Source of the DNA: Terriglobus aquaticus | GTDB taxonomy: Bacteria; Acidobacteriota; Terriglobia; Terriglobales; Acidobacteriaceae | NCBI RefSeq assembly: GCF_025685415.1 | Contig: NZ_JAGSYB010000001.1 | Coordinates: forward strand, 2,294,001 to 2,358,000 | Direction: 5' to 3' | DNA length: 64,000 nucleotides | Part shown: positions 1-15,692 of the stretch, in pieces | Layout of the letters: every line of letters begins with the position of its first letter | Numbering within the stretch: the first letter of the stretch is position 1 | Translations under genes and position numbers: made by a program | The notes under the pieces: generated by a model | Database searches by the model: none | What the model was told of the DNA's origin: nothing | Seen by the model: only the letters and a program-made list of their open reading frames with translations

Positions 1-1714
1 TGTAACTTAACGTGAGCACTTGGACCGATGTTGCGAGCCGCCACCCTTTTTGCCTTGCATACAAACCTCTAGCTTCTCCGGCCGATGCGAGAGTAGCTTC
101 GACCCTGAGCAGAGTAGAAACAACTGGATCCGATCGAAACTCTCCTTCTTGCACAAAGCGAAGGAAGTCCGATCGAGCGATGTCACGCGCGTAATACCGG
201 CGTAGTTCTCCTGCATTGCGACATCTCGTAGACTCTTCGCTCCACGCGAGCCATTGTTTGTGCAAGTCCAGTGGAGTGACTCGCCTGACGAGGGCGCACA
301 GCAGCCAACGGAAGTGTTCGGTGATCATGCTCAGCCATTCGCGAAGGTCAAAGAGCATCGTCCAATCAAGGTCGGGCGTGGGAATCCGGTAGAAATTCGA
401 GAAGATGTCCGGGTTCTCCCGGATCAGCGTGACTTCCATGTCGGCCTGGCTCAGGCCTTGGTGCGACATGCTCGAGTTGAAGTCCGTGAGGATTAGATCG
501 GCCGCATGCCTGGTCTGCAGCGGAGTGCCTGCCAACGGCGCCAACAAATTCAGTTGAGGATGGGAGCGCTTGCACCGAGCTGACCGCATATAGATCTGCA
601 ACGTGTCAGCTACATCTGCCCAGTTCTCTTCGGGAAAGCCGACGATCAGTGACGCCGTGGTACGGATACCAACGTCCTCACAGGCCTGCAGCATGGCTTC
701 CGCTTTCGCCGGATCCAGATCTTTATCGATAATCCGCTGCATGCGCGTCGAGCCGGACTCGATGCCGAAGAATAGTCCACGGCAGCCGCTGCTTGCCATC
801 TGCTGCAGCAACTCAGCATCAACGCAGTCCGTACGTGCGCTGCAGTCCCAAGTGAACGCTTCGCCCGACGCGCGCAGCGTTTCGCAAAAGGCAACTACTC
901 GCTTGCGATCCACGGTGAACATGTCGTGCACGAGCTCAAAATGGCTGATTCCATAGGTCTCCGCGATCTGCCGCATGTCCGCCAACACCCGCTCCGGCGA
1001 ACGAAGGCGGAAGCGTCGGCGAAAAAAGTCATTGGTCGAGCAGAAGCTGCAGGAGAACGGGCAGCCCCGACCCAATTCGATGGAGGCCGAGGTTGCATCC
1101 CGAAGATAACTGCTCAGGTGATACGCAGGAGAGGGCAGGGAATCCAGATCTTCGATGACGGGTGGACTAGCTGTTCGATACACCTGGTTGCCGTCGCGAA
1201 AACAGAGCCCAGGCACATCCGCGAAACGATAATTCCCGCAAAGTTCACGGAGAAAGATTGGCAAGGAGCGCTCAACTTCACCCCGCAGAACGAAACCGAC
1301 TGCGGGGAAGCGGCGAAGTACCGCCTCATCCACCACAGAAGCCTGGGGACCGCCAAAGAGGACCATCGCGTGCGGTCGAAGCCGTTTGATGGCATCTGCA
1401 ATCCTCAGGCTGAGAGGGAACGAGCTACAGATCGAACTCAGGCCGTACACATCCGCGTTAGAGCGGACCGCCAGCGCTCCCATGTAGTCCGCGAATTCGT
1501 CCATGCAGGGTTGTTCGCCATTCAACGCGAAGCGAAGGTACTCCGCATTCACATCGAACAGGTGCGGGAGGTCGCCCCACTGCTCCAGTACCGACGCGAC
1601 GGACAGGATGCCGAGCTGCGGCTGCAAGGCTGCCTGTTGCACGGCCCTGCTAAGGATCTCCTCGCGGGAGCGAAATTCCGTAATCGTCGGTGCAGTGACG
1701 AGAGCGAAATGCAT
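1..1714 (-). CDS. B12-binding domain radical SAM protein (3' end off the window)
   Basis: At least 571 residues are encoded and the frame is still open at base 1, so the C-terminus is missing. Residues about 25-190 look like a cobalamin-binding Rossmann domain, with a GGPQAS segment followed by RGEVE, as in B12-dependent radical SAM enzymes; I see no DxHxxG motif. The radical SAM core follows with CPFSCSFC (Cys218, Cys222, Cys225; CX3CX2C) to bind the 4Fe-4S cluster, then FFGIESGS and SLIVGFPEE segments typical of the TIM barrel. Such enzymes methylate or otherwise modify unactivated carbons; the substrate here is unknown. The start ATG at 1714 lies 33 bases after the stop of a small peptide gene on the same strand, suggesting one transcript and a possible peptide substrate. 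No strong Shine-Dalgarno is visible. The domain assignment is firm; the peptide link is inference. Confidence 0.85.
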   Translation of the reverse strand, partial: MHFALVTAPTITEFRSREEILSRAVQQAALQPQLGILSVASVLEQWGDLPHLFDVNAEYLRFALNGEQPCMDEFADYMGALAVRSNADVYGLSSICSSFPLSLRIADAIKRLRPHAMVLFGGPQASVVDEAVLRRFPAVGFVLRGEVERSLPIFLRELCGNYRFADVPGLCFRDGNQVYRTASPPVIEDLDSLPSPAYHLSSYLRDATSASIELGRGCPFSCSFCSTNDFFRRRFRLRSPERVLADMRQIAETYGISHFELVHDMFTVDRKRVVAFCETLRASGEAFTWDCSARTDCVDAELLQQMASSGCRGLFFGIESGSTRMQRIIDKDLDPAKAEAMLQACEDVGIRTTASLIVGFPEENWADVADTLQIYMRSARCKRSHPQLNLLAPLAGTPLQTRHAADLILTDFNSSMSHQGLSQADMEVTLIRENPDIFSNFYRIPTPDLDWTMLFDLREWLSMITEHFRWLLCALVRRVTPLDLHKQWLAWSEESTRCRNAGELRRYYARDIARSDFLRFVQEGEFRSDPVVSTLLRVEATLASAGEARGLYARQKGWRLATSVQVLTLSY

Positions 1715-1747
1715 TTGCGATCCGGGGCCCTAGCGTAGACCGACGAG

Positions 1748-2014
1748 CTACGGTGCCCAGCCTTCCTGCTCGAGGCGGAGGTCCAGACTATACGTTGTCG
1801 ATCCCGACGCTTCGGAAGAAGGCGCGGCGCTTGCATCGAGATATGTCGGACGCTGTGCGGTAGAGCAAACTTTCTGGAAGGGCAGATCCTCTACCTTCAA
1901 AAGCTGCTTCAGATCTTCCAGAAATCGCCTGCCCTCTTCGGTATCGGGAATTTTGATTTTCAACCCCGTGTCAGGCTGTACGGTTGGGCTAAGGATCTTC
2001 TCAGGCTTCTCCAT
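1748..2014 (-). CDS. Small 88-aa peptide, candidate substrate of the adjacent radical SAM enzyme
   Basis: This 88-residue ORF starts with ATG at 2014 behind a good ribosome-binding site (GAGAGGAG, about 6 bases upstream), which is why I prefer it to a start 30 codons earlier. It has no signal peptide or membrane segment. The first half is charged and could form an amphipathic helix (EEGRRFLEDLKQLLK, residues about 26-40). After one Cys (CSTAQRPTYL), the C-terminal half is rich in Ser, Thr, Ala and Tyr and ends in GWAP. A helical leader with a low-complexity tail, 33 bases ahead of a B12 radical SAM gene, is what a ribosomally made, post-translationally modified peptide precursor would look like, but I recognise no known precursor family. 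It could instead be an unrelated small protein. Confidence 0.6.
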   Translation of the reverse strand: MEKPEKILSPTVQPDTGLKIKIPDTEEGRRFLEDLKQLLKVEDLPFQKVCSTAQRPTYLDASAAPSSEASGSTTYSLDLRLEQEGWAP

Positions 2015-2151
2015 CCAAGTACTCCTCTCTGCGTTGTTGTGGATCGAGCTATCCGCACCTGCAGATCGCACGAGCGGACCGGCACCGTGTTCGTTATAAC
2101 GCATAGAACCGTGAAGCCAACAAAATGTTGACGCGGTCGCCTCCAGACGTC

Positions 2152-5001
2152 TTAGTGGACCTGAGCAAGGGTGCCGACCTGTATGGTCGAGCTCTGCTCG
2201 CCAAGATTGAGGAAGAGGCTATCGCCGTCAGTGGACAAGTTCAGCACGCGCGGCAAGACCTCGTCTATGGAGGCGCGCTGGTTATGGATGTGGGCTGCGA
2301 CGATGGGTTCGCCGAATCGTTGTTTAGCCACATCGAAGCGGCGACGATAAAGGCACATGAACCCGTCGCGATTGGAGGTGTACACGATGCCGGTTCCGTT
2401 GCCGTACCAGCGCGGGTGCAGTGGTGTGCCTGGCTCCTCCGGCATGAATACTGACCGTTGTGGATGGAGGTCGATGGAATTCAGGTGCACAACCTCGATT
2501 CGCTTGCGCGCCGGCGAAGACGCGACCAGAACCAGATTGCTCGTGGCGGCTGACCAACTCGCGTCCCCCAGCATGGCTTCTGTTTCACTCAAGACAGGCT
2601 GTTGCTGGCCGGTGCGTGGATCAGCGAGCGAGAGCGCCTTGAGTCCGCTTCGGAAAAAGAACATGTGGTCGTGCGCAAACCAACCGAAGGGCGCGCTGCA
2701 GTCTTCGCAGATACGCTTCATGCTGGTCCCGATGCGCCCTGCATATACCGCGGACCGGCCTGTCGGTTCTGCCTGCTGAAACGCTAGCCAGACCCCGTCG
2801 CGGTCGACTATAGGTGACTGCGCCGACAAGCCTTGGTTCCAGACCACGCGTTCCTGACCGCTTTGCAGGTCGCGCAGCACCACCACACGTTGTGCGCTTC
2901 GCCCGCGCGTAAAGACGAGATAGCGCCCTCCCTCCGCGACAAAGGGCTGACCATCTACCTCGGGATCCTCTGTCACCTTTTCCAGAGAAAGCTGCTTCTT
3001 TTCAAGGAGACCGTCCATTTTCCAAATGTGAAGAGCTCCGGTGATGCGAGTGAACGCGATCGATCCCCCTCCTGATATTGAAGGATCGAGCTCACCGGAA
3101 TCGGACGGGAGCAGCCATCGCGGCTGACCGATGGCGTGAGGATCACTGGGCGGCAACGAAATTTCGGCAAGATTCAGCCTGCCACTCGTGTTCATAGAGC
3201 TGTAGACGAGCTGATTCCCGCGCCACTCCAGAGAGTTGAGTCGGCCCGGCAGGAAGTTTTTCGCACGCAGAGAGAAAAAGGCGTGGGTGGGTGCGACTGT
3301 GCCAGTGCTGGCAGAGGCGATCCACCAATCCAGGCAATCGGGAAGAAGGCCCGGCGCCAAACAGCCTGTCAGCAGAATCGCCCGCCCGTTCGAATTCCAA
3401 ACGGGGTACCGTGCATCCTGGAACTGGGCTGCCACGAGCTGGGGAGCACCACCGGCCAAGGGCAGCAGAAATGCCCTTCCGGAAGGCGTGCTGGAATCCG
3501 GATCGCCGGTCCAGTAGAGGAGGCTCTTGCCGTCGGGTGAAAACTTGGGATCGCGGCCACCCCTGATCAGAAGACGAGGAGACTGTTCTGGCGCTTGTGT
3601 CGATGCCAGATAGATGCCGCCGCCGTCACGCTCCGATCGAAACGCCACCTGGCTTCCATCGGGAGAGATGCTTGGAACGGTGTCTCGTGCGCCGTCGCGG
3701 GTCAGCCGAATGACGGGTCCGGAGGGAAGCTTCTGCACAAAGATGTCCAGGTTGCCAGGCTCGGCGCGATCTGAGGAATATGCCACGAAGCGGCCGTCCT
3801 GCGAGAGGGAGGGTGTCTCCGACTTATCCACGTCTGGAGTTATCTGCACCGTATTGCAAATCACGCAGGCGACGGGAGGCACCCTGGCGTGACGTTTCCA
3901 GAGCAGTAGTCCTAAGCCCGCCGCTAGCAGGATTGCCGCCGCTTCAACCCAGATCATGCGCGTGCGCACGGGTGCGGGCAGAAGCGAGGACCTGACCGCA
4001 GCCATGTCGGGGAAGCGGTCGTCGGGTGCGGGTGCGGTGCAGCGTTGAATCACCCGCAGCCACGTCTTTGGATACGCGATGTTCCGTGAGTCGATGGACA
4101 GGTTACCCGTTGCTGGCGGCGTCTGACCCGTCATCATCTCCCACAGCACCACGCCGAATGCGTACTGGTCCGCCGCAGGTCCAACCACCTCACCGCGCTT
4201 CTGCTCGGGCGACATGTACCCCGGAGTTCCGCGTGCGATCAGGTCGCTTCCGTTCGTGACGCCCGGCGAATTCATAATGGCCAGACCGAAGTCGGTGATC
4301 ACGGCGCGCACCGGAGAGCCAGGCATGTCGAGCAGCATGACATTACCCGATTTGAAGTCCCGGTGAACCAGACCACGCGTGTGGGCGGCCTGCAGCCCCG
4401 AGAGCATGGCAACGGCAAGGTGCTCTGCAGCAGTGCGCAACAGCGGGCCGTGCTCACGAATGTGGGCCAGAAGAGTAGTCCCACGTAGCAGTTCCATGCT
4501 CAGGAACCAGATGGGTGGTCCCTCAGCCGGCTCCTCGCAGAAGAGCTCGTGCACGCGGCAAATGTTGGGGTGGGACACCTCGCGGGCAAGCCGCACCTCC
4601 TGCTTGAAGCGCTCAATGACCGCAGGATTCGCTGAGATGTGAGGAAGGATGGTTTTGAGGGCAACGGCTTGGTTCAGCTGGCTGTCCCACGCTTCGTATA
4701 CCTCGCCCATACCGCCGCGGTTGATGTAGGACCGTATTTCAAAGCGTCGAGCCAGAACGGCGCCCACCACGAATGCAGGTGAGCTGGAAGGCTGCTCCAG
4801 TAACTCGCCAAATAAGTTGCTGGCACCCGCTTCCAGGAAGTCGCTTAAAGCAGGGACAGCCCCCAGGAGGCGCAGTACTTCCGCTTCCAAGGCCAGGTCG
4901 CCGTCGCAGGCCGCATGCACAAGCGCCATGTGGCGAGATGCCGGCTCATCCGCGATCGAATCGAAGATTTCTTTGACCCGACTCCACCGGTCCGGGCTCA
5001 T
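2152..5001 (-). CDS. Membrane Ser/Thr protein kinase with C-terminal TolB/PD40 beta-propeller
   Basis: 949 residues. A short N-terminal helical region precedes a complete Hanks-type kinase domain (about 85-340): glycine loop NRGGMGEVY (94-102), Lys116 in VALK, catalytic HRDFKSGN (Asp215) and DFG (237-239), then GTPGYMSPEQ. One transmembrane helix follows (about 350-368). The remaining ~570 residues carry repeated PD40/TolB-like blades such as FVAYSSDRAEPGNLDIF and SPDGSQVAFRSERDGG, predicted to form an extracytoplasmic propeller that senses a ligand. Kinase-propeller proteins of this layout are abundant in Acidobacteria. The start overlaps the stop of the sigma-factor gene by four bases (ATGA), so the two are co-translated, and the sigma factor is the obvious candidate substrate. 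Confidence 0.93.
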   Translation of the reverse strand: MSPDRWSRVKEIFDSIADEPASRHMALVHAACDGDLALEAEVLRLLGAVPALSDFLEAGASNLFGELLEQPSSSPAFVVGAVLARRFEIRSYINRGGMGEVYEAWDSQLNQAVALKTILPHISANPAVIERFKQEVRLAREVSHPNICRVHELFCEEPAEGPPIWFLSMELLRGTTLLAHIREHGPLLRTAAEHLAVAMLSGLQAAHTRGLVHRDFKSGNVMLLDMPGSPVRAVITDFGLAIMNSPGVTNGSDLIARGTPGYMSPEQKRGEVVGPAADQYAFGVVLWEMMTGQTPPATGNLSIDSRNIAYPKTWLRVIQRCTAPAPDDRFPDMAAVRSSLLPAPVRTRMIWVEAAAILLAAGLGLLLWKRHARVPPVACVICNTVQITPDVDKSETPSLSQDGRFVAYSSDRAEPGNLDIFVQKLPSGPVIRLTRDGARDTVPSISPDGSQVAFRSERDGGGIYLASTQAPEQSPRLLIRGGRDPKFSPDGKSLLYWTGDPDSSTPSGRAFLLPLAGGAPQLVAAQFQDARYPVWNSNGRAILLTGCLAPGLLPDCLDWWIASASTGTVAPTHAFFSLRAKNFLPGRLNSLEWRGNQLVYSSMNTSGRLNLAEISLPPSDPHAIGQPRWLLPSDSGELDPSISGGGSIAFTRITGALHIWKMDGLLEKKQLSLEKVTEDPEVDGQPFVAEGGRYLVFTRGRSAQRVVVLRDLQSGQERVVWNQGLSAQSPIVDRDGVWLAFQQAEPTGRSAVYAGRIGTSMKRICEDCSAPFGWFAHDHMFFFRSGLKALSLADPRTGQQQPVLSETEAMLGDASWSAATSNLVLVASSPARKRIEVVHLNSIDLHPQRSVFMPEEPGTPLHPRWYGNGTGIVYTSNRDGFMCLYRRRFDVAKQRFGEPIVAAHIHNQRASIDEVLPRVLNLSTDGDSLFLNLGEQSSTIQVGTLAQVH

Positions 5002-5600
5002 GTCTCAGCGGAGCCGCGCGCCAATTCCGTGTAGAGCCAGCTTTTTGCCAAGACCCAGTCGCGCTTCGCGGTTCGGAGCGAAATACCTTGCGCTTGCGCG
5101 ATCTCTTCAAACGAAAGCCCGCCGAAAAATCGCATCTCCACGGCTTGCGCCAGACGCGGATCAAAGGCGGCCAGCTTGTCCATCGCTTCGTTCAGAGAGA
5201 GGACATCGATCTGCTGTTCGAACACCTGCACGCGCGAGTTGAGTTCCACCTGCTCATGCCCGCCGGGACGTTTCTGAGCTTTCGCCGCCCTCGCATGGTC
5301 GACCAGCACACGCCGCATCGTGTTTGCGGCAAGAGCAAGAAAATGGGCTGTGCTCTGCCAATCGATCCGTTCTGTTTGCAACAGTTGCAGGTAGGCTTCG
5401 TGCACCAGAACCGTCGGCTGCAACGTATGACCTGGGCGCTCGCGGCGCATGGCGGCCTCTGCCAGGCGGTGCAGCTCGCGATAGAGGAGAGGCACCAGTT
5501 CTGACGCAGCATGCTGGTCACCCGCATGCACCTGATGAAGGAGCTGCGTAACCAGATGCTGTTCCGCACCGAATTGCGATTGAGGGGACGACAAAGCCAT
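4998..5600 (-). CDS. ECF-type RNA polymerase sigma factor (ECF43/TIGR02999-like)
   Basis: 200 residues with sigma-70 region 2 (about 15-110) and region 4 (about 130-195; FFGGLSFEEIAQAQGISLRT is the helix-turn-helix). Where ordinary ECF factors have an acidic DAED motif in region 2.2, this protein has QPTVLVHEAYLQLL with Thr63 in the middle. That is characteristic of the group in which a partner kinase phosphorylates this threonine to allow RNA polymerase binding (known for EcfP/PknT of Vibrio). There is no anti-sigma gene beside it; the next gene, overlapping by four bases, is a Ser/Thr kinase. Phosphorylation control is therefore inferred from motif and context. The start ATG at 5600 has AGGCTGA just upstream. 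Target promoters are unknown. Confidence 0.92.
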   Translation of the reverse strand: MALSSPQSQFGAEQHLVTQLLHQVHAGDQHAASELVPLLYRELHRLAEAAMRRERPGHTLQPTVLVHEAYLQLLQTERIDWQSTAHFLALAANTMRRVLVDHARAAKAQKRPGGHEQVELNSRVQVFEQQIDVLSLNEAMDKLAAFDPRLAQAVEMRFFGGLSFEEIAQAQGISLRTAKRDWVLAKSWLYTELARGSAET

Positions 5601-5748
5601 ATCGTTCAGCCTTTGCGTGTCGGCAACAGTTTAGCCGGTGAGTTCGTGTTCATGGCAGCACAAATTCTTTTTTTGTGATGGCACTTTGTCCGGCGCGTTT
5701 CCGCCTTATCCAGTGAGGGCTGAAAAAGCCCCAAACCAAGGACAAAGT

Positions 5749-6219
5749 ATGAACAACTCTCTTCTCCCAGGTCTGATGGCGCGCCGAAACATGGCACGCC
5801 TTGGTTCTCTCGTTCTAAAACTCGCGATTTTCCTTCCGCTGCCGGCATTTTGCCAGGGCAGGACGGTTTCCGTCGCGAAAATCCCCTTCCGATTTGCGGC
5901 GAATGGCCACATTCTGCCTGCTGGCGAATACTTCCTTCACCGCGACAGCGAAAACATCTACTCCCTGCGAACGCGAAGCGGCGCAACGGCCAGCAGGTTC
6001 ATGGTCTATGGGGATACCTCTTCCACAAGCCAGCAGAGGAGCAAGCTCGTCTTTCGCGTCAGCGCGACCGGCTACTACCTCGATAGCGCATGGACCGAGG
6101 GCTCACGCGATGGCATTCGAGTGGTGAATCCGCGGCCCAAGAAAGAAGTGGCCGCCGTGCCAACCGGGAACGATACCGCCATGGTCGCCTCGGAAGTACA
6201 AATCCCGCTGGAAAAGTGA
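5749..6219 (+). CDS. Small secreted protein of unknown function
   Basis: 156 residues from ATG at 5749, preceded by AAGGA; an in-frame start 37 codons earlier would add an unlikely leader. A signal peptide is visible (hydrophobic LGSLVLKLAIFLPLPAFCQG, cleavage near residue 35). The mature part contains IPFRFAANGHILPAGEYFLH, a pattern I associate with small acidobacterial exported proteins of unknown role, predicted to be mostly beta strands. No catalytic motif was recognised. It is divergent from the sigma/kinase pair, about 150 bases apart, so the two could share a control region, but nothing in the sequence proves this. Confidence 0.7.
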   Translation: MNNSLLPGLMARRNMARLGSLVLKLAIFLPLPAFCQGRTVSVAKIPFRFAANGHILPAGEYFLHRDSENIYSLRTRSGATASRFMVYGDTSSTSQQRSKLVFRVSATGYYLDSAWTEGSRDGIRVVNPRPKKEVAAVPTGNDTAMVASEVQIPLEK

Positions 6220-10680: not shown

Positions 10681-12543
10681 CTACTCCGCTTTGACCGGCG
10701 GGTTCTCGGTATACGTCTTGCGGACCAGCTCCACACTTTGCTTCGGCTGCATCGTTTCAGAAAACAGGCCTTTGCGGTTATACCCGTTCTGCAGCTTAGG
10801 AATGTTCCGCGTGGACGACCGGAAATCCATCAACACCCATGGCGTGGTTCCCCGCATCTGCGGAATGCGACGGATCATGGCGAACTGATGCTGTAGAACG
10901 TTCACTTGCTGCTCTTCCGTCCAGCGATCGTGCGCTCCGCCGTGATTGCCGGGCGTCGCCTCGGCGCCGAACTCCGACATGATGAACGGCTTTTGTGGTA
11001 GCACCCAGGTCTTCCGGTCGGCGTCTTCCGCCGTGCCTTCGTACCAGCCGATGTATTCGTTCTGACCTACAACATCCAGCGCCGGCATCAACGGATCATC
11101 CTGCACGATGCGATCTTCACTTACGCGCGGACCGATCAGAGCGCTGGTGATCAGGCGCGTGGAATCGGTGTGGCGCGCTTCGTTCGCAAGGTTCGTCAGA
11201 AAGCGTGTCCGGTCGGCGTTGTTCGGCGTTTCGTTCGACACAGACCAGAAGATTACCGACGCTTTGTTCTGATCGCGACGGATCATCTCGTGCAGCATGG
11301 TCACGGCCTTGGCGTAGACCTCCGGACTGCTGAAGGTGATGCGCTGCCACAGTGGGATCTCCGACCACGCCAGGATGCCTGCAGCGTCCGTCGCGCGGGT
11401 CATCCGCTCGTCATGCGGATAGTGGCACAGCCGCACGAAATTCGCGTTGATGGCATGCAGCATCTTGACGATGTTCTGCATATCGGCATCGCTGTATGCT
11501 CGGCCACCGCGCACAGGAGCCTCCGCGTGCATGTTGGCACCGAGCAGCGCTATCGGTTTGCCGTTGAGCAGGATGCGTGTGCCGTCCACACGAACGTCGC
11601 GGAAGCCGATCTGGTCTGCCACGTGATCAGCCCCCGCGCTGATCTGAACGGCATACAGCTTTGGATTGGTGGTGGACCACAGGTCGAGGCGTTTCGCCTC
11701 TGCCTGGAAGGACGCCTGACCGTTGCCGTCTGTCGTCGCCGTGGCGTCAACACCCGCTTCCGGAATGCGGATATTCACCTTGGTTCCGGCTGCGGCGCCT
11801 TCCACGTGAACATAACCGGCAACGGTGCGCGCCGCGGCAGATCCAGGAGCGAAGCTGGCTCCGTGCTGCAGTTGAACGCGGTAGTCGTCGATGAACTCCG
11901 TTGGCACCGTGATCAGCGACACGTCACGTGTGAGGCCGCCATAGTCGTAGAAGTCGTAGAGCAGCGATGGAATGTCGTCCTGGTGACGCGTTGAGTCCAC
12001 CGCCGCCACGACGAAGTTGCTGCCCGGGTGCAGCAGCGCGGTCGCGTCACAATCGAATGGCGTGAAGCCACCCTCGTGCTCACACAGGCGCTTGCCGTTC
12101 ACCCAGAACACCGAACGGTAGTTGGCCGCGCCAATGTGCAGGAAAGTGCGCTGGCCCGGCTGTGGCGTGTAGTCGAAGTCGCGCTGATACCAGACCACGC
12201 CTTCAAAGCGCAGCAGCGTCGGATCCTGCGTGTTCCAGTCGCCCGGCACTTTCAGCGTAGGCGCGGTGCTGAAGTCATACTCGGAGTTGTGCGGTCCACT
12301 GCTGATGTTGGGATGCGTGTTCAGGGCATAGCCCGTGTCGCGAATCTTGCCTTGCGAGTCATAGAGCTCACGCGCGGGCGGCTGCTCCACCAGGTAGTGC
12401 CAGTCTCCATCTAGAGACTGTGCCGGCCGGCGGTCGGCACCCACCAGCAACGTTCGAAGTGGTGTCTGTTGAGCGGCGGCACTGGCGGTCAACACAAGGC
12501 AGGCAACGGCGGCAAGCGGCTTGCTGCAGGAACGAAGGCGCAC
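10681..12543 (-). CDS. Secreted glycoside hydrolase family 2 (beta-glucuronidase/beta-galactosidase-like)
   Basis: 620 residues with a signal peptide (about 1-24, ending SAAAQ). Domains run in the usual GH2 order: sugar-binding jelly roll (about 40-215; LDGDWHYL, FEGVVWYQRDF), immunoglobulin-like middle (about 215-320) and TIM barrel (about 320-600). The acid/base is Glu438 in WSVSNE and the nucleophile is Glu524 in IMSEFGAE, both at expected positions. The GANMHAE and RLCHYPHDE segments match the active-site region of beta-glucuronidases. It cleaves beta-linked sugars in the periplasm or outside; exact specificity is uncertain. It faces the TonB receptor tail to tail, and a membrane protein and a putative glycosidase gene lie beyond its start, so the group may act on one glycan. 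Confidence 0.93.
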   Translation of the reverse strand: MRLRSCSKPLAAVACLVLTASAAAQQTPLRTLLVGADRRPAQSLDGDWHYLVEQPPARELYDSQGKIRDTGYALNTHPNISSGPHNSEYDFSTAPTLKVPGDWNTQDPTLLRFEGVVWYQRDFDYTPQPGQRTFLHIGAANYRSVFWVNGKRLCEHEGGFTPFDCDATALLHPGSNFVVAAVDSTRHQDDIPSLLYDFYDYGGLTRDVSLITVPTEFIDDYRVQLQHGASFAPGSAAARTVAGYVHVEGAAAGTKVNIRIPEAGVDATATTDGNGQASFQAEAKRLDLWSTTNPKLYAVQISAGADHVADQIGFRDVRVDGTRILLNGKPIALLGANMHAEAPVRGGRAYSDADMQNIVKMLHAINANFVRLCHYPHDERMTRATDAAGILAWSEIPLWQRITFSSPEVYAKAVTMLHEMIRRDQNKASVIFWSVSNETPNNADRTRFLTNLANEARHTDSTRLITSALIGPRVSEDRIVQDDPLMPALDVVGQNEYIGWYEGTAEDADRKTWVLPQKPFIMSEFGAEATPGNHGGAHDRWTEEQQVNVLQHQFAMIRRIPQMRGTTPWVLMDFRSSTRNIPKLQNGYNRKGLFSETMQPKQSVELVRKTYTENPPVKAE

Positions 12544-12664
12544 TGGCAGAATCCTCGCGACAACTCTATCGCACGCACAATACCTTCGGCTTAGGACTGC
12601 GGTCCCATTCGTTAGCGCCAGGCGTCATCCTTGCAAGAAAAGGCCGTGCGAATCTCCCCCAATC

Positions 12665-13714
12665 TCAGGCGGCGACCTTGCTCACCAGGCCACTGGCATG
12701 CACGTGCTGCGGGTTCGTGGATCGGTCGGCCAGACGTTCTGCGAGCAGGATGATGCACACCGCCGTGTAAGGGCATAGCTCTCCGTAGATCCGCGTCTCC
12801 AGAATGACGCCCGTATAGAACATGATGGCAAACCACGGAACGACGATCCAGATGTAGTTACCGAAGCGGACCGGCTCGATGCGTCGCCAGAAAAGAAGCA
12901 CGATCGGGAACAGGTAGCCGCAGATGTTGAGCAGAGCCGGAACCAACCGGATTTTAAGCCTGCCCGCGTTCTCGGCGATGCGAATGTAGTTCTCGGATTC
13001 GTCGTTGCCGTTGAAGTGGTAGGACAGCCACAGCTTGATGGCGAGCCAAACCGCACAGAGCAATCCTGCCCGCAGCCACGGGATGCGACGCCAGTCGAAT
13101 CGCTCCTGCAAGGGCGCGTCCGCTTCCGGGTTCCTGCTTACAGCATCCAGCACAAAGATGCCCGCAAGAAACAGCGTCGTTTCACGGTTCCACGTCCCGA
13201 CGGCAACAGTCAGCAGCAGTGGGAGAAAACGCCTGGTGTAGACGCAGACCAGGCCCACGGTGAAAAACGCGAGGCTGATCATGTCATACGGGTAGGAGTA
13301 GTTCGCTTCCACGTGAATGGTGTACGTCCACATCACCGTGAACAGAAAGAATGGGAAGACGAACATCGACAGGGAGCGCCGGGGGCTGACGGCTCGGTAC
13401 AGCAGTTGGGTAAAGACGGCGGCCACTGCGAACGCGACCAGGCTGACAAGAAAGAACGGAGCGCGCGACCACGGGATAACGCCGTTTGCATGCGAAAGAC
13501 GATGCATCAGCCACGGCGATGCATAGATAGGTTTCAGTAGAAAGATCGGCAGGACCCGCTCCTGAAACGGCAAGCGTTCGTGACCGGAGAGATAAGCCGG
13601 CAATCGAAGATAGAAGTCCGTGCTTCGCGCATAGAACCGCACGAACTGCAGACCCGCGCAGGCGTACAGCAGCACAATAACTGCGCGAGAGATGCGGTGG
13701 CGAACAGCGGTCAT
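12665..13714 (-). CDS. Polytopic membrane protein of unknown function
   Basis: 349 residues from ATG at 13714; the frame extends 24 codons further, but the added stretch is Cys/Ser-rich and unlike protein. At least eight hydrophobic segments are visible, for example APFFLVSLVAFAVAAVFTQL and LLCAVWLAIKLWLSYHF, with short loops. The WNRETTLFLAGIFVLDAVS segment resembles families of uncharacterised bacterial membrane proteins. There is no recognisable transporter or glycosyltransferase signature, although multi-spanning proteins of this style can be lipid-linked-sugar transferases. It lies about 120 bases upstream of the GH2 gene on the same strand and could be cotranscribed with it. Confidence 0.75.
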   Translation of the reverse strand: MTAVRHRISRAVIVLLYACAGLQFVRFYARSTDFYLRLPAYLSGHERLPFQERVLPIFLLKPIYASPWLMHRLSHANGVIPWSRAPFFLVSLVAFAVAAVFTQLLYRAVSPRRSLSMFVFPFFLFTVMWTYTIHVEANYSYPYDMISLAFFTVGLVCVYTRRFLPLLLTVAVGTWNRETTLFLAGIFVLDAVSRNPEADAPLQERFDWRRIPWLRAGLLCAVWLAIKLWLSYHFNGNDESENYIRIAENAGRLKIRLVPALLNICGYLFPIVLLFWRRIEPVRFGNYIWIVVPWFAIMFYTGVILETRIYGELCPYTAVCIILLAERLADRSTNPQHVHASGLVSKVAA

Positions 13715-13889
13715 TGCGGAAAGTATGAGCGACGAAGCGGACCTCGACACGCTACACATCGACTGGCAGCGACAGCATCGGCACAAGTGGCAGAGAACGA
13801 CATCCGAACGTTAGGGACGGCAGCGGCGGGCAACGAACTTTGCCGGGCGCGGCAGGAGAGCTTCGGTCTTAACTACGTAGAGGAGAAAC

Positions 13890-15692
13890 ATGCCACGCCT
13901 GCCGTTCATGCAGCACAATGCGCTTTCTGAAATCATTCGTGGTCTTCTGCTGTGTCTCGCAAGTTCCGCCGGGCCGCTGTTTGCGCAGGACGGGTTGCGG
14001 ATCACGTATGGCCAGCAAGGCATACAGACCCTGGCTTACCGCGGCCAGGTACTCGAAGACGTAGGCCGCTATCCCGAAGACGCTTTTCACATCTGGCACA
14101 TGAAGAGCACGGACCTGGCGGGCCGCCCATTGAGCGACGGCGAGCATGGCTGGGGAGAAGCGACCAAGCGGCGCACCTGGAATGCAGCCACGCACACCTC
14201 CACCTATGAGTTCGGCTGGGGAACCATCGTTACTGAGTTCAACCAACAGGGCGACACGCTCAACGTGACCGTAACGGAGGTGAACCACACCGGGAGTGGC
14301 ATCCGCTTCGCCGGCGCCACGCTGTATCCGTTTGCGTTGCATTTTCCGCGGCTGCCGGCGGGCTTTGCAGACGCACGCAGTCACCAGTTCGCATTCAACA
14401 CGACAGGTCCGAGCGTCACCGTCGCGGACTTCGGTGACGGTGAGGTTGCCGCCGTTGTTCCCGAGGTGACGAAGCCCCTGTACAGCGGCTTTCAGCCCCT
14501 TGCTACACCCAACGCATACACCGCGCTTGTCAGTTCCACCGCCCCGGATTCGTTGGCTGTGTTTGAACCTCACCGGGACAGGTCCATCGAACCCGGGCAG
14601 ACGGATCGGTTCACCGTTTCGTTCCGCTTCGCACCCTCGGGAACGCCCCGGGCGACGATCGGTGCTGACGCGTATGCGGCATGGGCGGCGCATTGGCCAG
14701 CCCGCCTGCACTGGAGCGATCGCCGCATCGTTGGAACGGCGTACTTGGCAAGCTCAGCGCCCGGCGACCGCAGTCGACCGGCTGGGTACGCCAACAACCC
14801 CCGTCGCTACTTCAACACCGGCGACAGTCATGACTTCGACATTCGATCTGCTGACGGCATCGTCAAGTTTCAGCGCAGAGTTCTGCAACAGGCGGCCGAC
14901 ATCGTCACCAATCTCCGCCGGCTACACGCACAAGGTGTCATCACCTGGGACGTGGAGGGCGAAGAGTACCCCATGAACACTAGCTATGTGTGCGCTCCCG
15001 ATCAGATCGCGACGATCGCGCCGGAGATGGAAGCCGTCGTCCAGGATCCACAATCGAAGTTCCAGGGTATGCGGCTGGACGATGCCTACTTCCGAACCAT
15101 TCGAGACGCAGGCTTCCGAGTGGGTGTGTGCGTTCGACCGCAGAACTTTGTGCGGAGCGCTGCCGGTTCGGCGGAACAGGTCTCGCTTTCGAGCCGGGCA
15201 GACATTGCTGCTTTGCTGATCCGCAAAATGCGCTTCGCCCACGATCGCTGGGGTGCGACGCTCTTCTATCTCGACTCCACGGTGGATCCGCGTGGAGCTG
15301 TACTAGACGCGTCCATTGTGCAGCAAGCCGCGGCGGCCATGCCCGATTCCCTGCTGATTCCGGAAGAAAGCACGCCTGCCTTCTACGCGGACACCGCGCC
15401 GTTTCAGAGCTTTTTGTTCCACGGCGACCTGGGCACACCCGCGGACATTTACGCGATGTATCCATCGGCGTTCAGTGCCAACCTGGTGAACGACGTTGGC
15501 GCCGCGCAGCTCGAGGCACATCGCGCGGAGCTAACCGAAGCGATCCGCCGCGGCGACATCCTCATGGTGCACGCGGACTCCTGGCACCCCAACAACGATG
15601 TGGTGCTCCGCATGGTTGCGGACGCGGCGGACAGCGGAAAGCGGCATCGCGCAGGAGCGGCACCACACAGCACCGGCGCGCCTGCGAAATGA
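13890..15692 (+). CDS. Secreted putative glycosidase, unclassified
   Basis: 600 residues starting at ATG 13890 behind an excellent site (GAGGAGAAAC). A signal peptide ends near residue 33 (GPLFAQDG). Residues about 35-275 look like an all-beta N-terminal domain. From about residue 330 a TIM-barrel-like part contains VITWDVEGEEYPMN, GMRLDDAYFRTIRDAGFRVG, ATLFYLDSTVDPRGAV and SLLIPEEST. Acidic residues at the ends of these predicted strands are as expected for a retaining or inverting glycosidase, and the Asp in FYLDS is a plausible catalytic residue. I cannot assign a named GH family. It is next to a GH2 enzyme and a TonB receptor, supporting a role in glycan breakdown. Function is inferred. 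Confidence 0.72.
   Translation: MPRLPFMQHNALSEIIRGLLLCLASSAGPLFAQDGLRITYGQQGIQTLAYRGQVLEDVGRYPEDAFHIWHMKSTDLAGRPLSDGEHGWGEATKRRTWNAATHTSTYEFGWGTIVTEFNQQGDTLNVTVTEVNHTGSGIRFAGATLYPFALHFPRLPAGFADARSHQFAFNTTGPSVTVADFGDGEVAAVVPEVTKPLYSGFQPLATPNAYTALVSSTAPDSLAVFEPHRDRSIEPGQTDRFTVSFRFAPSGTPRATIGADAYAAWAAHWPARLHWSDRRIVGTAYLASSAPGDRSRPAGYANNPRRYFNTGDSHDFDIRSADGIVKFQRRVLQQAADIVTNLRRLHAQGVITWDVEGEEYPMNTSYVCAPDQIATIAPEMEAVVQDPQSKFQGMRLDDAYFRTIRDAGFRVGVCVRPQNFVRSAAGSAEQVSLSSRADIAALLIRKMRFAHDRWGATLFYLDSTVDPRGAVLDASIVQQAAAAMPDSLLIPEESTPAFYADTAPFQSFLFHGDLGTPADIYAMYPSAFSANLVNDVGAAQLEAHRAELTEAIRRGDILMVHADSWHPNNDVVLRMVADAADSGKRHRAGAAPHSTGAPAK

Follow-up and report, generated by a model that had tools for sequence, protein, structure and literature searches.

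The NGO1945/HvfC/TglI-type RREs are separate proteins, the partners of MNIO enzymes. ApyD, which is RRE-containing, methylates the C-beta of the penultimate Tyr in ApyA; an MNIO is reported in all aminopyruvatide clusters, and the precursor has a C-terminal Asp and a CBX2-3G motif (PMC10635010). PbsB is a B12-radical SAM enzyme that crosslinks two ortho-Tyr residues, and also Tyr in a YTY variant (PMC12257519).

The locus described here lies at the left edge of the window (the whole 64,000-nucleotide stretch of DNA that was analysed, G000:C1:2294001-2358000, in a genome of 4.16 Mb). It comprises a small open reading frame (ORF) and, immediately downstream, the gene of a B12-binding radical SAM enzyme. 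We infer that the small protein is the substrate of this enzyme, divided into a leader and a core, and that the two constitute a minimal RiPP-type pathway in which the enzyme C-methylates or crosslinks the tail of the peptide. (The probability of this reading is roughly 0.77.) An undescribed pathway for the chemical modification of a ribosomal peptide is very probable, because the peptide adjoins the enzyme, the enzyme has a predicted RRE-like tail, and a kinase and a sigma factor accompany the two genes; most likely the pathway is new.

1748..2014, minus strand: candidate precursor peptide gene (group A), 88 residues (ORF and translation; orthologues beside the enzyme in G002, G007 and G013)
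2022..2030, minus strand: AGAGAGGAG, ribosome-binding site of the candidate precursor gene (from the sequence), 7 bases 5' of the ATG
1..1714, minus strand: B12-binding radical SAM enzyme, 667 residues, extending 290 bp beyond the left window edge (L002:13711-15714) (ORF, Pfam, NCBIfam)
1259..1621, minus strand: B12-binding domain of the enzyme, residues 32-152 (PF02310, 38.9 bits, cut-off 32.1)
596..1081, minus strand: radical SAM core of the enzyme, residues 212-373 (PF04055, 72 bits, cut-off 29.5)

Between the stop of the peptide gene and the enzyme's ATG (1714) lie 33 bases, and a strong ribosome-binding site precedes the peptide gene, just as an earlier note on this DNA had described the 88-residue ORF. 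An alternative in-frame ATG at window 2104 would yield a peptide of 118 residues, near the 121-126 residues of the orthologues; a ribosome-binding site is not evident at that position. The start at 2014 is retained with slight reservation. The ORF is more than a chance one, since peptides 47-53% identical to it occupy the same place in three other genomes of the genus and two of its parts are under purifying selection (see below). The peptide ends in ...EQEGWAP, and its sole Cys precedes STAQRP. No precursor family in Pfam or NCBIfam matched it, in keeping with the earlier note, which had recognised none. (Phage_Bbp19, at E 0.089 in Pfam, is under the cut-off and was rejected as a family for the peptide; the single PDB match of the peptide profile, at E 0.22, was discarded.)

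By domain and motif content the enzyme is assigned to the B12-dependent radical SAM class, with cofactor binding predicted: PF02310 and PF04055 both match above cut-off, and the CX3CX2C motif is C218-x3-C222-x2-C225 (window 1040-1063), which bears out the cobalamin-binding domain and radical SAM core of the earlier note. The best NCBIfam match is NF050148 rSAM_ApyD (E 2.5e-107, 359.9 bits); since this is far below the family's cut-off of 750, the enzyme is related to the ApyD equivalog without belonging to it. All seven enzyme homologues tested likewise have ApyD as their top family. The next matches are HpnJ (136 bits), BchE (120) and rSAM_ocin_1 (TIGR03975; 119.9, short of its cut-off of 281.85). 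Sequence comparison with solved structures gives remote matches (E 9.9e-22 for the nearest, which spans residues 88-374), and a comparison of the enzyme with plasmids gave eight records, all below 60% identity and none covering 80%.

HpnJ, BchE and HpnR are small-molecule families, and their scores of 82 to 136 bits would accord with an enzyme that modifies a lipid or other small molecule and has the peptide gene as an accidental neighbour. This is very improbable: ApyD is ahead by more than 200 bits (360 against 136 for the next best, so that the placement in a small-molecule clade for which the earlier note had allowed was not found), the peptide is co-conserved with the enzyme and under selection, and the enzyme has, in its model, a C-terminal RRE-like domain.

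1..43, minus strand: first residues of the putative C-terminal RRE-like domain of the enzyme, about residues 558-663, the remainder lying outside the window (L002 about 13726-14043) (AlphaFold2, VIA-align)

This domain was modelled with AlphaFold2 from enzyme residues 545-667 together with 10 homologous C-termini (11 rows). The model (pLDDT 84, pTM 0.74) begins with two short strands and a helix, continues with two longer strands and three helices, and closes with a short strand; this agrees with the described RRE fold except for the helix amid the strands. Foldseek gave no match to the model at E <= 0.001; its first five ranks are TglHI, NGO1945, TglHI again, a ribosomal complex chain and TbiB1. 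On rescoring of the Foldseek rows with VIA-align, TbiB1 with leader peptide is at the top (Z 7.8, rmsd 2.7, 82 aligned), followed by NGO1945 (7.4), TbiB1 (7.3), lasso B1 (7.2), TbtB (6.8), PKMT2 (6.3), PqqD (6.1) and GdmN (6.0); these Z values are middling, and Z below 8 can reflect a mere common arrangement. Judged by their titles, five of the best seven rows belong to RiPP proteins (TbiB1 in two rows, lasso B1, TbtB and PqqD) and one is NGO1945; the unrelated PKMT2 outranks PqqD, and GdmN stands just beneath it. The sequence signal for an RRE is weak: HvfC (NF050145) scores 19.8 bits over residues 517-659 against a cut-off of 142, and PqqD has E 0.19. As modelled, the C-terminal domain of the enzyme is probably an RRE, that is, a fused leader-binding domain. 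The earlier note, which had no leader-binding protein in view, is superseded on this point: the probable domain is part of the enzyme itself and lies, but for its first residues, outside the window.

A search for the peptide among 101 relatives (E <= 0.1) gave 10 matches in 9 genomes. The real ones are four (G000, G002, G007 and G013, all at E <= 4e-16), and the four-row profile built on them (E <= 0.01) finds the same 4 in 300 family genomes. The six weak matches (G015, G012, two in G086, G004 and G036; E 5e-4 to 0.097) were dropped after inspection. Read in frame, two of these lie in a longer NUDIX hydrolase-like ORF, one lies in a DnaJ C-terminus-like ORF and three contain stops; the four-row profile recovers none of them, and none of their host genomes has the enzyme at E <= 1e-60. 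At that threshold the enzyme is present in 5 of the 101 relatives and, within the genus, in 4 of 19 genomes, the four with the peptide (the other 15 are without the enzyme). The proposal that the peptide gene stays adjacent in related genomes holds at all four of these loci (group A), where the peptide lies directly 5' of the orthologous enzyme at a distance of 25-33 bases. Two parts of the peptide are conserved.

1865..1990, minus strand: residues 9-50 of the peptide, the conserved putative leader, SPTV...LKIKIPxTEEGxxFLxxLxxLL...LPFxxxC (the four orthologues agree in 20 of 42 aligned columns)
1751..1804, minus strand: residues 71-88 of the peptide (GSTTYSLDLRLEQEGWAP), the conserved C-terminal tail and candidate core (the orthologues agree in 11 of 19 aligned columns)

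The hinge between them has no invariant position in 20 aligned columns; the borders of leader, hinge and tail were set after the alignment was viewed, and the sample is small, four orthologues of which three are mutually close. The tail consensus in the orthologues is TTYxLxxRxEQEG[W/F]xP. In a codon comparison the tails of G007 and G013 differ by 8 synonymous and 0 nonsynonymous changes, and for this pair nonsynonymous change differs between tail and hinge with p about 1.5e-5 (counts rounded). The other five pairs have 4 to 11 nonsynonymous changes in the tail, at a rate below that of the hinge in every pair. At the level of codons, this comparison shows leader and tail to be under purifying selection and the hinge to be free. 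(What had been expected was a conserved leader and a variable tail; instead the tail is as much conserved as the leader is expected to be, and variation is confined to the hinge between them.) A Lys/Ser/Pro-rich N-terminal extension in three of the orthologues is under little constraint (dN 0.18-0.33 vs dS 0.29-0.32). The N-terminal part of the peptide in L026, L027 and L028, and in ORF 2903-3334 of L048, is Lys/Ala/Ser/Pro-rich and histone-tail-like; in the window's genome this part is absent or degraded. A kinase gene adjoins the peptide.

In the wider family the enzyme is present at E <= 1e-80 in 15 of 398 genomes. With G738 left out (its contig starts about 390 bases upstream of the enzyme gene), each of the 14 remaining loci has a small ORF 25-201 bases upstream of the enzyme; distant enzymes in G425, G350 and G159 are outside these adjacency counts. 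Four of the loci are group A, eight are group B (G047, G348, G506, G524, G534, G573, G588 and the diverged G557), and G539 and G570 are singles. Group B has 13 mutually homologous peptides of 62-110 residues, with two tandem copies in five of the eight genomes and a conserved body ending ...MGC (MGEDSDETP in G557, whose enzyme of 536 residues is without the RRE-like part). The longer group B peptides have a twin-arginine-like start (the one tested scores 15.9 bits with TIGR01409, cut-off 16.7). Four of the five tandem pairs (L030, L049, L050, L053 and L047) have one twin-arginine-like copy and another copy without that start; both copies share the body and the ...MGC end.

The enzyme tree (15 rows, without G524, whose enzyme holds a run of N, and G588, whose enzyme is interrupted) has A and B each as one starred clade, with G557 joining B, also starred. 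Since these are separate starred clades with different peptide sets, the peptides track the enzymes. Three of the four group A enzymes lie near one another; G539 is attached to A at 84/76, unstarred, G570 is unplaced, and the outgroup branches are long. The single 73-residue ORF of G539 resembles group A in its tail to a degree reached by 17 of 2000 shuffles (367 of 2000 for the whole peptide), which is suggestive of homology for the tail alone. The G570 peptide has no similarity to group A above chance (877 and 828 of 2000 shuffles). These two loci weigh little, because single small ORFs can arise by chance, whereas A and B are homologous sets. Among 100 relatives of G539, four have the enzyme and none has a further group A-like locus. 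A different arrangement is seen in L031 (G425:C26) at about 11441-14473. There, 3' of an enzyme distantly like ApyD, small ORFs of 77 and 66 residues, the first with a ITIDELEDRLEMQLLG stretch, are followed by a 453-residue ORF and by a CxxxCxxC ORF resembling a radical SAM protein. This is possibly another ribosomal-peptide cluster.

A tail that is conserved rather than variable might also belong to a folded accessory or regulatory partner of the enzyme or kinase, in which case the small protein is no substrate and the enzyme has a different target. The AlphaFold2 model of the peptide, strand-helix-strand...strand (the leader being the strand-helix-strand), with pLDDT near 80 at residues 21-40 only, is in line with such a partner, as is the Lys/Ser/Pro-rich extension of three orthologues. 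The overall confidence of that model is low, however (pLDDT 56, pTM 0.36, hinge under 50). Moreover, the RRE-like domain predicted on the enzyme points to peptide binding, and the occurrence of unrelated peptides, and of tandem copies, beside related enzymes fits precursors better than subunits. A folded partner is accordingly judged unlikely, and a precursor is the reading kept here.

In the proposed pathway the small gene would encode the precursor, the conserved N-terminal part of which (the LKIKIP strand and the helix) would be bound by the RRE-like domain at the C-terminus of the enzyme. The enzyme would then modify the conserved tail. The likeliest reaction is the radical C-methylation of one side chain, with a carbon-carbon crosslink as the alternative; C-methylation is put first because ApyD methylates. 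The candidates for methylation are Tyr75, Gln83 and the aromatic residue 86 (Trp86 in G000). Gln83 may be included besides Tyr75 and Trp86 because E82, Q83 and G85 are common to the tails of group A and G539. A crosslink or rearrangement instead of methylation would be a sub-case of the same RiPP-type explanation, conceivable in that PbsB crosslinks an ortho-Tyr pair, and Tyr in its YTY variant, and the tail holds Tyr75 and Trp/Phe86. It is possible but rather doubtful: these aromatic residues are 11 apart, unlike the three-residue rings described in PMC12257519, and the nearest family, ApyD, is one that methylates (PMC10635010). C-methylation of the tail therefore keeps its place as the likelier chemistry.

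2152..5001, minus strand: 949-residue Ser/Thr protein kinase that carries PD40 beta-propeller repeats (PF00069 and PF07676), upstream of the peptide and in the same direction
4998..5600, minus strand: ECF sigma factor of the TIGR02999 family (206 bits, cut-off 126), overlapping the kinase gene by 4 bases

The earlier note proposed a search to the left of base 1 for further maturation genes or exporters. In this direction nothing RiPP-like is seen in 14 kb, which hold a polyketide-cyclase-like ORF (Pfam), two zinc alcohol dehydrogenase-like ORFs and a UvrA-like ORF (by eye). Genes that co-occur with the pair do exist, to the right. Four genomes of the genus share a gene order in which the ECF sigma factor comes first, then the Ser/Thr kinase, the peptide and the enzyme. 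Of the 19 genus genomes, a kinase orthologue (E <= 1e-120) is present in precisely the 4 that have peptide and enzyme; the chance of so perfect a coincidence, 1/3876, assumes independent genomes, which these are not. The kinase has HRD and DFG. The ECF gene adjoins it in G002, G007 and G013 (tblastn), where the gap from kinase to peptide is 64-67 bases (137 in G000). In G539 the kinase lies 50 bases before the peptide, with no ECF match within the stretch examined; G570 has only a weaker kinase match, on the opposite strand, and the group B loci examined have neither kinase nor ECF at E <= 1e-5. Most likely the kinase, with its beta-propeller sensor, would act on its sigma factor and the operon would thereby be switched on. 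A block 5' of the ECF gene, at window about 5601-5860, with CCCTCAC and GTGCCA, is kept in the four genomes (L026, L027 and L028 besides the window) and could be the sigma factor's own promoter region. Downstream of the enzyme, inspection of the ORFs by eye over about 14 kb in G000 and 7-9 kb at the three further group A loci showed no conserved protease or exporter. An ABC-type permease-like ORF follows the enzyme in G013 only (by eye).

PQQ and mycofactocin are RiPP products of an internal cofactor or signal type. The strong purifying selection on the tail, the lack of a conserved exporter or protease seen nearby, and the co-inheritance of the precursor with its own kinase and ECF factor would all accord with a kinase/sigma-controlled acidobacterial RiPP class, the core of which would be conserved on account of a product that acts as an internal cofactor or signal and is not an antibiotic for export. 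This extension of the proposal is tentative and on the whole doubtful.

Acidobacteria have few characterised peptides. The present loci would add at least two candidate precursor families (A and B) to the ApyD-like branch of RiPP B12-radical SAM enzymes; where tested in Pfam and NCBIfam, the peptides of both groups match nothing above cut-off. The link to kinase and ECF sigma factor points to a ribosomal peptide made under the control of a signal. Since the system is small (a single peptide and an enzyme that has a predicted leader-binding domain of its own), substrate and chemistry are directly testable. No description of it was found in the titles and opening abstracts of literature on Acidobacteria RiPPs, radical SAM, precursor peptides and B12, and a body of mostly open-licence literature with few subscription papers yielded none that connects an ECF factor and a kinase with RiPPs or with Acidobacteria.

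The enzyme is like ApyD (NF050148) in uniting B12-binding, radical SAM and (here predicted) RRE parts in one protein with a short precursor gene (here a candidate) adjoining, and unlike it in its score, 360 bits against the cut-off of 750. The pathway is not an aminopyruvatide pathway, since the whole of its own genome has no match to the MNIO family (PF05114; the control search was positive in 2 of 14 genomes), the peptide has neither a C-terminal Asp nor a CBX2-3G motif, and no conserved protease or exporter is seen nearby. (Near the locus, no P450 or methyltransferase ORF was noticed by eye.) The likeness to PbsB of the biphenomycin-like peptides is by description and not by sequence: PbsB is also a B12-radical SAM enzyme, and its substrate is a ribosomal peptide, but it acts after an MNIO and an arginase, and it crosslinks. 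The rSAM_ocin_1 RiPP C-methyltransferases (TIGR03975) are also B12-radical SAM enzymes of RiPP pathways, with a cut-off (281.85) that the enzyme's 119.9 bits do not reach. In predicted fold, the C-terminal domain is like the NGO1945/HvfC/TglI-type RRE proteins; unlike them it is fused to a radical SAM enzyme, and its sequence score is under the cut-off. Finally, pairs of a TIGR02999 ECF sigma factor and a Ser/Thr kinase are common in acidobacteria, and the present pair shares that family membership; it is distinguished by the genes that come next and co-occur with it, one for a peptide and one for a B12-radical SAM enzyme.
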